A stretch of 34,398 nucleotides of DNA, taken from Mariprofundus sp. (GTDB taxonomy: Bacteria; Pseudomonadota; Zetaproteobacteria; Mariprofundales; Mariprofundaceae). The DNA lies in the NCBI GenBank assembly GCA_030951025.1, contig JAUZQK010000106.1, forward strand, positions 1 through 34,398, read 5' to 3'. The translations under genes were made by a program, and so were the position numbers. Under the pieces are notes generated by a model. It saw nothing but the letters and a program-made list of their open reading frames with translations. It was not told the origin of the DNA and searched no databases. Below are positions 31,211-34,289 of the stretch, piece by piece (the first letter of the stretch is position 1; each line of letters begins with the position of its first letter).

Positions 31211-31656
31211 ACGCGGTGGTAGGGGTGTCCCTGAATAATGGTAAAAGCTCGGTACAATTGCTCCAAGACTACGGCGCGAACCAGTTGGTGCGGCAGGGTG
31301 AGTTTGGATAAGCTCCAGCAGGCAGCTGCTTTTTCACGCACACTATCGTTCAAGCCATCTGCACCACCTATGACAAAATCCTGCTGCGCATCACCAGTTA
31401 ATCGACCCAGATAATCAGCCCAGCGGGTGCTGCCATGCATTGCCCCGTGTTCATCAAAGATAATAAAGCCCTGCCGCGCCTGTTGCAAAATGTGTTTACC
31501 TTCTTGCTGTTTGCGCTGTGAAACCTGTTTGCCACGGCCTTCAGGCAATTCAATCACCTGGCAGGCGGCAAAGGGTTTAAGGCGCTCGATAAAGCGCGCC
31601 TCAAAATCAGACAATTCTTTTGATCCCCGCCCAACCACGAGCAAACGCAGTTTCAC
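31207..31656 (-). CDS. rlmH: 23S rRNA (pseudouridine1915-N3)-methyltransferase RlmH
   Basis: Methylates pseudouridine 1915 in helix 69 of 23S rRNA. The 149-residue SPOUT-family protein has the start KLRLLVVGRG, the central FIIFDEHGAMHGS, the SAM-binding knot FVIGGADGLNDSVRE and the C-terminal LYRAFTIIQGHPYHR. I chose the GTG at 31656 because it overlaps the preceding stop codon as GTGA and places KLRLLVVG at the N-terminus, as in relatives; a start further upstream would add unrelated residues. It is coupled to rsfS upstream, a conserved rsfS-rlmH pair, and to envC downstream. Confidence 0.95.
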   Translation of the reverse strand: MKLRLLVVGRGSKELSDFEARFIERLKPFAACQVIELPEGRGKQVSQRKQQEGKHILQQARQGFIIFDEHGAMHGSTRWADYLGRLTGDAQQDFVIGGADGLNDSVREKAAACWSLSKLTLPHQLVRAVVLEQLYRAFTIIQGHPYHRV

Positions 31657-32663
31657 GATGTCTCGGTATTGCCATGTGGTGCAGACCATAAACGTTCAAG
31701 TTGAAAACTTTCGCGGGCATCTGGCAGAAACAAGTGCACAATCACATCACCCAAATCAACCAATAGCCATTCGGCCGCTTCCAAGCCTTCTACTTTGGCT
31801 GGCATTTCAAAGCGGTGTGCCACTTCACTGACTGATTTGGCCATGGCTTTGAGCTGGCGATTGCTGCGTCCACTGGCCAAAATAAAGCGGTCGGCAAAGT
31901 CGCAGCGGCCACGTACATCAATGACCAATATATCCTGTGCTTTGATATCTTCCAACGCTTCAACGAGTTGGCCGGTGAATATTTCATTTTTTTCTACTGT
32001 TGTCATGTTCCGTTCCTCTGTTCTATACTGTTTTTCAATATCCGATTGCAGCACTTTAGGCACTAAATCTGCGAAAGACAGCCCCAGTGCAGCATGCTTG
32101 CGAATCATTGTTGCCGAAATGTCCGGCAATGTCACCGCTAGCTCGCAACAATGGCCTGCTGTGATGCAAGATTTCCAATGCTGTAATGTGGTGCTTTTCC
32201 AACCCTCAAGCGCTTGCTGAGCATGTCTGGCGCTATAGTCCTGGCGTGCAAATACAGCAATATTGCATAGCTCTTGATGGGCTGGATATTCCTGCCAGGA
32301 TGTTAAACCATCCCAGGCATCGCTGCCCAACATCAGCCATGGCACGGTATCCGGAAAGCGTGTTTTGAATTGACGCAAGGTATCCACCATCGCGGTGGCT
32401 TGCTCTTGTTGCACTTCCCAATCTAGTACTCTTACCCTGCTTTGATGCTGAAAGACTCGCTCCATCCAGTCTAAACGCATCGCACCATCAGCATTGCCGG
32501 AAAGCACCCGATGCACAGGCATGGCTGGTATCACCCACACCTCATCCAGCCCCATAATATCGAGCCCAGCCTGCACCAAAGCCAGATGTCCAAGGTGCGG
32601 AGGATCAAAAGAGCCGCCAAACAAACCAATGCGGCGCGTGGATCTGATCTGCATGGTATTCAT
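31653..32663 (-). CDS. nadD-rsfS: NadD-RsfS fused reading frame: nicotinate-mononucleotide adenylyltransferase and ribosomal silencing factor
   Basis: One uninterrupted frame of 336 codons covers two normally separate genes. Residues about 1-210 are NadD, which adenylates nicotinic acid mononucleotide in NAD synthesis. The nucleotidyltransferase motif GSFDPPHLGH and the second motif ISATMIRKHA are intact. Residues about 220-336 are RsfS, which binds L14 and keeps ribosomal subunits apart during starvation; landmarks are FADRFILASGRSNRQLKAMA and WLLVDLGDVIVHLFLPDARESFQLERLW. No stop codon separates them, but a good internal ribosome site and ATG at 32006 could also produce RsfS alone. The ATG at 32663 is taken as start with AAGGAG 12 bases upstream. 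Its end overlaps the rlmH GTG. Confidence 0.88.
   Translation of the reverse strand: MNTMQIRSTRRIGLFGGSFDPPHLGHLALVQAGLDIMGLDEVWVIPAMPVHRVLSGNADGAMRLDWMERVFQHQSRVRVLDWEVQQEQATAMVDTLRQFKTRFPDTVPWLMLGSDAWDGLTSWQEYPAHQELCNIAVFARQDYSARHAQQALEGWKSTTLQHWKSCITAGHCCELAVTLPDISATMIRKHAALGLSFADLVPKVLQSDIEKQYRTEERNMTTVEKNEIFTGQLVEALEDIKAQDILVIDVRGRCDFADRFILASGRSNRQLKAMAKSVSEVAHRFEMPAKVEGLEAAEWLLVDLGDVIVHLFLPDARESFQLERLWSAPHGNTETS
32004..32019 (-). promoter_or_regulatory. Internal ribosome-binding site and start codon for a separate RsfS
   Basis: On the minus strand AGAGGA (32014-32019) lies seven bases before an ATG (32004-32006) in the fused nadD-rsfS frame. Initiation there would give a 117-residue RsfS of normal family length. 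This decides whether the fusion is obligatory or optional. Confidence 0.6.
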
Positions 32664-32810
32664 ATCGGCATGCTGCTCCTTAAAAGCAGCCACTCTATCG
32701 ATCAACAGCGGTGGAGCAATTTTGTTTTTGCCTGCTGTTCAAGAAGCAGTAGCTCCAGAATGAGGCGACCTGGACACGAAAGCCCTCTCCTACAGTTGAG
32801 GGAAAATAGT

Positions 32811-32848
32811 CACCCTATCATCAAGTTATAAAAGCCTGGTAGCGTTTA
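32811..32848. repeat. Diverged copy of part of the right-end repeat, at the 3' end of hepT
   Basis: These 38 bases match 33931-33968 with about five differences, including the shared core ATCAAGTTAT and AAAGCCTGG. They include the hepT stop codon and its last seven codons. The homology joins the end of hepT to the end of one direct-repeat copy 1.1 kb away. Confidence 0.7.
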
Positions 32849-33242
32849 TTACTGCATCTGTAAACAGCAGCAAATCATCCAGACCCGATTCGATAACAGC
32901 CTGAATGACAGCAACTTCAATATCCTGATGCTGATGAATCACAATGTTTCGAAAGCCAACCATGCGTTGCAGATTCTCAGACAAGCTGTCTGAAATCAGC
33001 CCTGCTTTTGCGAGCAGGGCAAAAGATTCCCGACTTTCATTAGGTATTCCCAGCTTACGGGTTTTAATCACCACATTGGCAAGATCAATGGCTTGTTCAC
33101 AAGCGCGGGTAATATTCAGGATTGCTGCATCCTGTCGGCTAAAGTCTTGGGAGAAGTTATCCCCTGCCAGTTGAAATTCTTCCTTAGCACGCTTGATACA
33201 GCGCTGGATGCTTTGAATTTTATTGATCATGACATCGTTCAT
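32826..33242 (-). CDS. hepT: HepT-like ribonuclease toxin (HEPN domain) with altered HxY motif
   Basis: The toxin of a type VII HepT-MntA toxin-antitoxin pair, an all-helical HEPN RNase that cleaves RNA when free. The 138-residue length is normal. The catalytic motif of the family is RX4HxY; here it reads R98-N-I-V-I-H103-Q-H105. Arg and His of the nuclease site are kept, but the tyrosine is His (codon CAT at 32928-32930). In characterised pairs that tyrosine is the one the antitoxin AMPylates to silence the toxin. The start overlaps the mntA stop (ATGA). Its last codons are shared with a repeat further right. Confidence 0.88.
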   Translation of the reverse strand: MNDVMINKIQSIQRCIKRAKEEFQLAGDNFSQDFSRQDAAILNITRACEQAIDLANVVIKTRKLGIPNESRESFALLAKAGLISDSLSENLQRMVGFRNIVIHQHQDIEVAVIQAVIESGLDDLLLFTDAVINATRLL

Positions 33243-33667
33243 ATTCGGATGGCTCGCCCGCTTGCATAAAAGGATTGTAAAATATCGGCACGCTCCTCAT
33301 TAAGCTTTTGATAGTAGGATATGGTCAACATTTCAAACTCATCGGCAGCATTATTATCTGCACAATAAATGCGCTGCTCAGCACTGATCACTTCTTTTTG
33401 CAATACAGTCGAGACCTGACGCAGATTAATCAGATCGATGTTTTTAGAGAACAGCTTTTCAAGCGCTTGATGCAAAGGCGTGGTATAAAGACCACTCAGT
33501 TTCCGGGCTTCCTGAACTGGAAAAAGTAAAGCGATATCAATATCGCTTGATGCTTTCTCATCAACTGTAGCCCATGAACCAAATAAATAGATCGCTTGGA
33601 TGAAGGGCAAATGAGCCAGGCAGGTTTGAATCAGCTGTTGCTTTTCATGGTTAACTACAAAGCCCAT
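33239..33667 (-). CDS. mntA: MntA-like nucleotidyltransferase antitoxin
   Basis: The antitoxin of the pair: a minimal nucleotidyltransferase that, in studied systems, transfers AMP from ATP onto HepT. The 142-residue protein has the GSX10DXD motif complete, G30-S31 to D42-I43-D44 in LFGSW and SDIDIALLF, and a third Asp candidate in KNIDLINLRQ. The enzyme should therefore be active. The ATG at 33667 is preferred because AGGAG lies eight bases upstream; a GTG nine bases earlier overlaps that site. It precedes hepT with an ATGA overlap, the usual antitoxin-first order. Confidence 0.9.
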   Translation of the reverse strand: MGFVVNHEKQQLIQTCLAHLPFIQAIYLFGSWATVDEKASSDIDIALLFPVQEARKLSGLYTTPLHQALEKLFSKNIDLINLRQVSTVLQKEVISAEQRIYCADNNAADEFEMLTISYYQKLNEERADILQSFYASGRAIRI

Positions 33668-33701
33668 CGAATCCACTCCTCTTGTATTATTTCAATATTT
33701 A

Positions 33702-33749: not shown

Positions 33750-34011
33750 TCCAAACACTGCGCCTTTTATTTCAGGATTAACATCGCGGAATCAATTCCC
33801 AAGTGCAACTCCAGCGAGTTGAGTTTTGGTGCTGAAGAACACTTCATGGGTCGTTCCGGGAAACCCCGCTCGCAGCTTTTTTGCTGCTGCTTTAAACCCA
33901 CCACCAGCCTCCCCAGCCCAAAATATAATCATCCTATTATCAAGTTATGAAAGCCTGGCACCGTTTACAGTTATTTTAAACAACTCAACAACTCATGCCA
34001 GACCCCATCAT
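33750..34011. other. Non-coding stretch left of the transposase remnant
   Basis: It contains a small hairpin, CAACTC-CAGC-GAGTTG, at 33806-33821 followed by a short T run, the first copy of the 69-bp direct repeat, and a diverged relative of the hepT 3' end at about 33931-33985. An open frame starting at 33826 reads through all of it but has no protein-like composition before the transposase part. Confidence 0.6.
33878..33946. repeat. 69-bp direct repeat, copy 1
   Basis: Identical over 69 bases to 34221-34289, in the same orientation. It begins TTTTTGCTGCTGCTTTAAAC and ends with TATTATCAAGTT. The two copies flank the transposase remnant at a start-to-start distance of 343 bases. Confidence 0.95.
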
Positions 34012-34209
34012 ATGAATAAGCCTCGGTGGGTCGCCATGTATTTGTCGCAAGAAATGGGCAGTAAAACGCTGAGCGAAATCGCCAAAGGTTTCGGTTTGAA
34101 AAGAACGGGCAGCATCCCAACAACAGTTGCTAAATTGAGGGGACTGATGAAAGAGGATTTGAATTTAATGGAGAAGCTAAACCGGGTAAAGCGTGTATTT
34201 GACACTTGA
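34012..34209 (+). pseudogene. REP-associated tyrosine transposase (RAYT) remnant, C-terminal helix-turn-helix part
   Basis: Sixty-five codons from ATG match the C-terminal extension of IS200-like REP-associated transposases, which resembles the DnaA C-terminal DNA-binding domain. Landmarks are NKPRWVAMYLSQEM, LSEIAKGFGLKRTGSI and a terminal helix rich in Leu and Lys. The catalytic Y1 domain that should precede it (HUH motif and Tyr) is absent; the upstream sequence is a direct-repeat copy and non-coding DNA. It is therefore a truncated relic, unless the small DNA-binding part has been kept for another use. A clear ribosome site is missing before the ATG. Confidence 0.65.
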
Positions 34210-34220
34210 CCCCTTTGATC

Positions 34221-34289
34221 TTTTTGCTGCTGCTTTAAACCCACCACCAGCCTCCCCAGCCCAAAATATAATCATCCTATTATCAAGTT
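34221..34289. repeat. 69-bp direct repeat, copy 2
   Basis: Perfect second copy of 33878-33946, starting 12 bases after the transposase remnant's stop codon. After TATCAAGTT the sequences of the two copies diverge completely. Confidence 0.95.

Follow-up and report, generated by a model that had tools for sequence, protein, structure and literature searches.

A 69-bp direct repeat beside RAYT/TIRYT-type termini: a probable tandem duplication cut by a MITE-like element

Results

The window analysed here, a stretch of 34,398 bp, is one entire contig (C9) of a genome assembly that comprises 163 contigs and 2.2 Mb and is 92% complete. Read along the plus strand, its right end holds the minus-strand toxin and antitoxin genes hepT (32826-33242) and mntA (33239-33676), an IS30-family 3'-end relic (33784-33856, minus strand) whose frame, THEVFFSTKTQLAGVALGN*, resembles the C-terminal end of the L057 IS30 ORF, the first copy of a 69-bp repeat (33878-33946, plus strand), two RAYT/TIRYT-type termini designated A and B, a 65-aa DnaA-C-like fragment together with a putative third terminus (C), the heptamer TTTGATC, the second copy of the repeat (34221-34289, plus strand), and a MITE-like sequence of 109 bp, with copy 2 ending 109 bp short of the contig end. 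To the left of these features, nadD and rsfS form a single frame of 350 aa (31653-32705, minus strand) with matches to CTP_transf_like and RsfS; in most near relatives the two are separated by a stop or appear as two separate matches, and relative G002, like the window, keeps the frame open, here over 344 aa. In relative G001 proA lies directly before nadD, and the close relatives L187 and L188 carry an additional frame, some 327 codons long from stop to stop, between the end of proA and nadD, which suggests that the stretch before nadD is probably an insertion hot spot at which elements have arrived recurrently.

A reading of the window from its letters alone (the sequence-only reading) had described two identical 69-bp copies enclosing the DnaA-like C-terminal part of a REP-associated transposase. 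Self-comparison at an offset of 343 confirmed the pair, which matches perfectly (69/69) over 33878-33946 with no matching run before it and a start-to-start distance of 343, and the enclosed DnaA-like part is equally real, with a Bac_DnaA_C match at 34012-34206. The pair is the sole exact direct repeat of at least 20 bp within the window and lies far beyond chance. Copy 1 continues through a RAYT-type terminus and copy 2 is broken by the MITE-like end, and the arrangement is best described by a tandem-duplication unit of 343 bp (33878-34220, plus strand) which we infer to end 7 nt outside a GACCCC tip, those 7 nt being the flanking TTTGATC (34214-34220, plus strand) that separates the tip from the duplication junction.

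We next asked where else the 69-mer occurs. A search of its own genome returned just the two known copies. A search of 150 genomes, the window's own included, with a 719-bp region as query and at most three candidates per genome scored, yielded nothing that covers the 69-mer in any of the 149 others, a weak negative, and elsewhere the neighbourhood of the two copies matched only in its terminus-A part and its MITE part. An exact 23-mer core of the repeat was absent from a collection of genome contigs and the 69-mer was not found in plasmids or phages; one exact 20-mer match in a viral contig was dropped as chance, as similarity was not evident beyond the 20 bases. The continuation of the duplicated unit occurs once in the assembly of its own genome, so the rest of copy 2 either lies in the unassembled part or has been lost. 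Predicted DNA folding of the 69-mer was no better than that of shuffled sequences (z -0.4), scans for promoters and terminators stayed near chance level, and Rfam at gathering thresholds returned nothing for six loci, the window end among them.

Three RAYT/TIRYT-type terminal motifs, all in one orientation, lie within the duplicated segment. Terminus A (33922-33967, plus strand; CAAGTTATGAAAGCCTGGCACCG) is like the ends of the intact elements L137 and L139, and terminus B (33978-34006, plus strand; AACTCATGCCAGACCCC) is like the right ends of the intact elements L135 and L141. Putative terminus C (34196-34213, plus strand; TATTTGACACTTGACCCC) is present in a single copy in its own genome with no partner end there, and 159 other genomes gave two matches with two mismatches versus eight for the reversed control. 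The tip that follows the 65-aa fragment, GGGGTCAA, is one letter off the consensus GGGG[AT][CG]A[CG], and intact RAYT-type genes of the same family in relatives have inverted repeats at both ends. A further A-like terminus, sharing 85% identity with 33922-33967, lies at 32803-32848 (plus strand) and overlaps the 3' end of hepT, whose stop codon falls within it; the two A-like sequences point the same way, with hepT-mntA and the IS30 relic between them. An alternative reading of 33922-33967 as a relic of the hepT 3' end, based on its resemblance to 32803-32848, was dropped because the motif is also found at RAYT ends.

The 65-aa DnaA-C-like fragment (34012-34209, plus strand) is probably the C-terminus of a DnaA_C-type RAYT (TIRYT) and has its TGA stop inside TGACCCC. 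Pfam Bac_DnaA_C matches it with an E-value of 2e-5 and 24.9 bits, under the curated cut-off of 31.5. When scored on profiles, the fragment reached 41.7 bits on DnaA domain IV and 25.8 bits on the C-termini of relatives' RAYTs, a profile on which all 32 DnaA sequences tested (27.6-47.4 bits) outscore it. On the DnaA profile, from which 14 of 46 DnaA-hit loci had been excluded with GGRDHTT undetected by motif search, relatives' RAYTs scored 7-39 bits and true DnaAs 143-167 bits, and by this last measure the fragment is no ordinary DnaA. With only 65 aa, it has neither the GGRDHTT-type motif nor the AAA+ domain of a bona fide DnaA, and an intact dnaA ORF of 448 aa lies on contig C99. Among 59 RAYT-type ORFs found in relatives, the stop matched TGACCC in 18 and TGACC or TGACA in 22; this set includes three secondary ORFs (in L161, L162 and L178).

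Y1_Tnp gave no match in the fragment or in its 127-aa frame, so the locus holds a TIRYT/RAYT relic at most. An intact DnaA_C-type RAYT did not turn up in the window's own genome either: its single Y1_Tnp match is a 149-aa ORF on C99, away from the locus. Among the matches listed for the fragment in relatives and 398 genomes of the phylum, those outside the window lie in ORFs of 320-604 aa, which we read as DnaA; of nine plasmid matches, both annotated ones are dnaA. Peptide patterns derived from the fragment found nothing in the collection of genome contigs, and blastp against 17 RAYTs of relatives gave weak matches to five, the best two at 29-30% identity. The RAYT label therefore draws on the anatomy of the locus and not on a close homologue. 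The label given by the sequence-only reading is thus likely, in that the fragment lacks the DnaA signature GGRDHTT and stops inside TGACCCC, and it is unproven, in that the fragment fits the DnaA profile better; we treat it as a probable RAYT remnant.

A feature absent from the sequence-only reading is that copy 2 directly abuts a terminal inverted repeat (CAGGGCAATCGCATTAAAA) of dispersed occurrence, whose first base is 34290. A MITE-like element begins there, interrupting copy 2 and running to the contig end (34290-34398, plus strand). At two mismatches or fewer the inverted repeat has 11 matches in its own genome, the window's included, and the reversed control pattern none; the upstream flanks of the other copies are unrelated. 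One two-ended copy of 223 bp with both inverted repeats lies at C152:1034-1256, and no target duplication is visible there. In relatives, identical 10-bp flanks were present on both sides of three of five two-ended copies (L253, L254 and L261, not L255 and L260), from which TTATCAAGTT (34280-34289, plus strand) is the predicted 10-bp target duplication of the window's element, the other side being unassembled. The element is thus short and non-coding, has terminal inverted repeats and several copies, and shows target duplication in relatives, as a MITE does. No transposase was identified for the CAGGGCAATCGC element. The sequence ATGCATGCCAT flanks two copies of this element, L061 (C46) and L062 (C152), on opposite sides, which could reflect a target preference or a short motif that recurs. 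The break of copy 2 at the element border is explained by insertion into a longer second copy. The alternative, that the 69-mer and the MITE-like end form one unit, was suggested by relatives' matches crossing 34289/34290 and was dropped, as the upstream flanks differ in 13 loci; the nearest to the window's flank is that of L250 (19 of 27 bases, AT-rich), a likeness which we read as chance.

To place the window's repeat among RAYT loci, direct repeats were counted at the ends of 56 RAYT-type ORFs of relatives (17 regions of long ORFs and 39 new regions), a non-random sample picked from one list of matches, of which L130 and L141 were also met in the 719-bp search; the secondary ORFs in L161, L162 and L178 were left out of the repeat counts. 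Among five long proteins, those of L129, L134, L135 and L140 carry Y1_Tnp and Bac_DnaA_C above the Pfam cut-offs, and the fifth, L178, carries Y1_Tnp, only its HTH matches being weak. Of 52 upstream windows, 21 contained an exact direct repeat of at least 12 bp, and so did 11 of 52 windows downstream. The controls gave one case in 56 gene middles, seven in 77 far flanks and two in 87 windows at dnaA loci; Fisher's test of 32/104 versus 10/220 gives p 3e-10, a value that is overstated, as copies within arrays are not independent. Two of the positive upstream windows, L137 and L168, resemble CRISPR arrays, with regularly spaced 37-bp repeats adjoining the RAYT genes upstream, and those of L143 and L158 are probably chance 12-mers. 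In a motif-matched control a repeat spans 89 of 194 tip motifs near ends versus 9 of 70 far ones, the motif being short and G-rich.

Tip-spanning direct repeats were carried by 26 of 89 ends with a tip motif (22 loci). These repeats reach a median of 7.5 nt beyond the tip; for 20 of the 26 the extension is 4-9 nt, for the remaining six it is 0, 0, 3, 11, 13 and 16 nt, and for the window's unit it is 7 nt. Many of the relatives' repeats are short, with periods of 12-30 bp. Full tandem cases that repeat part of the RAYT gene have periods of 283 bp in L178, 199 bp in L156 and 178-186 bp in L130; L178 lies within a contig of 423,649 bp and L130 within one of 268,846 bp. Judged by eye, homology is slight or absent at the junctions of the window and of these three long tandems. 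The 26 ends include L149, with a 13-bp repeat at a spacing of 339, and outside the 56-ORF sample L040 has a 41-bp repeat at a spacing of 169 around a stretch that looks by eye like a RAYT 5' fragment, a repeat spaced like the window's and no full tandem. A further set outside the family, comprising 14 loci with 13 ORFs that fit the profile and nearly all from more distant genomes, gave tip-spanning repeats in 3 of the 13 ORFs (L218, L219 and L220).

Discussion

The region is a graveyard of mobile-element remains, a small piece of genome decay in line with what is found at related transposon ends, and the locus taken alone is a modest result: a hot spot of mobile elements, now decayed, that lies upstream of nadD. 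Within it, we regard the 69-bp repeat as probably the visible part of a 343-bp tandem duplication beside RAYT/TIRYT termini, in which a transposase probably had a role and which a MITE-like element later cut. The perfect identity of the copies fits the recent duplication proposed in the sequence-only reading. Segment 33878-34220 would have been duplicated head to tail in one event, bringing with it the three termini and the probable C-terminal RAYT fragment, and the two 69-mers would be what is still visible of it; the MITE-like element would then have inserted 69 bp into copy 2, leaving 69 bp of repeat before the contig end. We infer this order of events, the former full length of copy 2 and the transposase's part; the repeat, its boundaries, their coincidence with the MITE-like end, the tip motif and the like anatomy at relatives' RAYT ends were observed. 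Beyond the MITE-like element, the 10-bp duplication TTATCAAGTT followed by ATGAAAGCCTGGCACCG would be expected. Several findings speak against this reading: the rest of the second unit was not found in a genome that is 92% complete, an active DnaA_C-type RAYT was not seen there, terminus C has no partner in that genome, the fragment fits the DnaA profile better than the RAYT profile, the two-ended MITE copy at C152 shows no target duplication, six of the 26 tip-spanning repeats fall outside 4-9 nt, and the far flanks used as a control also contain repeats (7 of 77).

As for mechanism, a Y1 (HUH) transposase of the RAYT/TIRYT type would most likely set the outer boundary, by cleaving or transferring a strand a few nucleotides beyond the terminal repeat. 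This outer site would be linked to an inner site that is arbitrary, the exchange probably taking place between the sister strands of a replication fork, with truncated elements as the reciprocal product. Cutting a few nucleotides outside the tip fits the clustered outer edge, the variable inner edge and the junctions with little or no homology. We offer, as a tentative generalization that may well prove wrong, that head-to-tail duplications of 12 bp to over 300 bp at RAYT ends, with the outer edge mostly 4-9 nt outside the tip and an arbitrary inner edge, are scars of transposase strand transfer between sister strands, a process that would yield truncated RAYTs in return. The 69-bp repeat would be one such scar, shortened by a MITE-like insertion.

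The same anatomy could have arisen with no transposase at all, through replication slippage or a RecA-independent rearrangement in a repeat-rich region, RAYT ends attracting such events as short repeats. The short periods (12-30 bp) of many relatives' repeats agree with this, the ordinary folding of the 69-mer (z -0.4) calls for nothing special, and no intact DnaA_C-type RAYT is visible in the window's own genome; yet the scarce homology at the window junction and in the long tandem cases, as judged by eye, and the clustering of the outer boundary 4-9 nt beyond the tip (20/26) with a varying inner boundary make slippage, in our judgement, the less likely account, though a serious rival. We give still less weight to an artefact of assembly, or a mixture of strains, in which variants with and without the MITE-like insertion were joined through the common 69-mer. 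The copies do lie near a contig end, the genome (163 contigs) is 92% complete, and an assembly from short reads could be misled by a perfect repeat of this modest length, but an assembly loop would still require reads joining both GATC and GCAGCT to the 69-mer, and similar anatomy is found inside the long contigs of L178 and L130, which renders an artefact improbable.

The sequence-only reading had also considered a mobile unit with long ends, here one of about 412 bp bounded by 69-bp direct repeats, as two perfect copies around a piece of a probable transposase gene might suggest. This idea has found no support: the 69 bp are not element ends, as copy 1 continues through a RAYT-type terminus and copy 2 is broken by a MITE-like end. 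Searches gave no further copy of the 69-mer, and so no second location such as a transposon with long direct-repeat ends would have, in its own genome, the 149 others (up to three candidates scored per genome), genome contigs, phages or plasmids. The right edge of the supposed unit is the insertion point of another element, and its interior holds ends of different RAYT types, all of which makes such a unit very improbable.

The way in which RAYT transposases disperse their termini is poorly understood, and a fixed duplication boundary outside the tips, if true, would be a readable trace of the enzyme's site of action that could be tested in any strain whose DnaA_C-type RAYT is intact. A limited literature search found no published rule placing the outer edge 4-9 nt beyond the tip.

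The Y1 HUH transposase superfamily includes the IS200/IS605 TnpA, which cleaves single strands near sub-terminal structures; the window's locus, unlike these systems, has no intact element or catalytic domain. Another close system is the TIRYT/TnpA_REP subclass 2.1, described as having ends that share GGGG[AT][CG]A[CG] and a Bac_DnaA_C domain (PMC6006769, PMC3733652), with TIRs of the TIRtrons/TIRYTs often occurring as dimers or clusters (PMC3733652). The relatives' proteins with Y1_Tnp and Bac_DnaA_C fit this subclass, and the window would resemble it in its putative GGGG[AT][CG]A[CG]-type termini and in a candidate DnaA-C-like HTH at the C-terminus, and differs from it in holding a C-terminal fragment and single termini only, with no Y1 domain (PMC3733652, PMC6006769). 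Arrangements of this kind are already known, since tandem REPIN clusters with flanking sequence have been described in Pseudomonas fluorescens SBW25, where three such clusters adjoin RAYT genes in that account (PMC3116915). As described there, the SBW25 clusters share with the window RAYT-linked termini repeated head to tail with flanking DNA, one flank being shorter; the SBW25 unit is a REP doublet, whereas the unit here consists of GACCCC termini of the TIRYT type plus a portion of a probable transposase gene, and its second copy, unlike the SBW25 clusters as described, is interrupted by the MITE-like element (PMC3116915).
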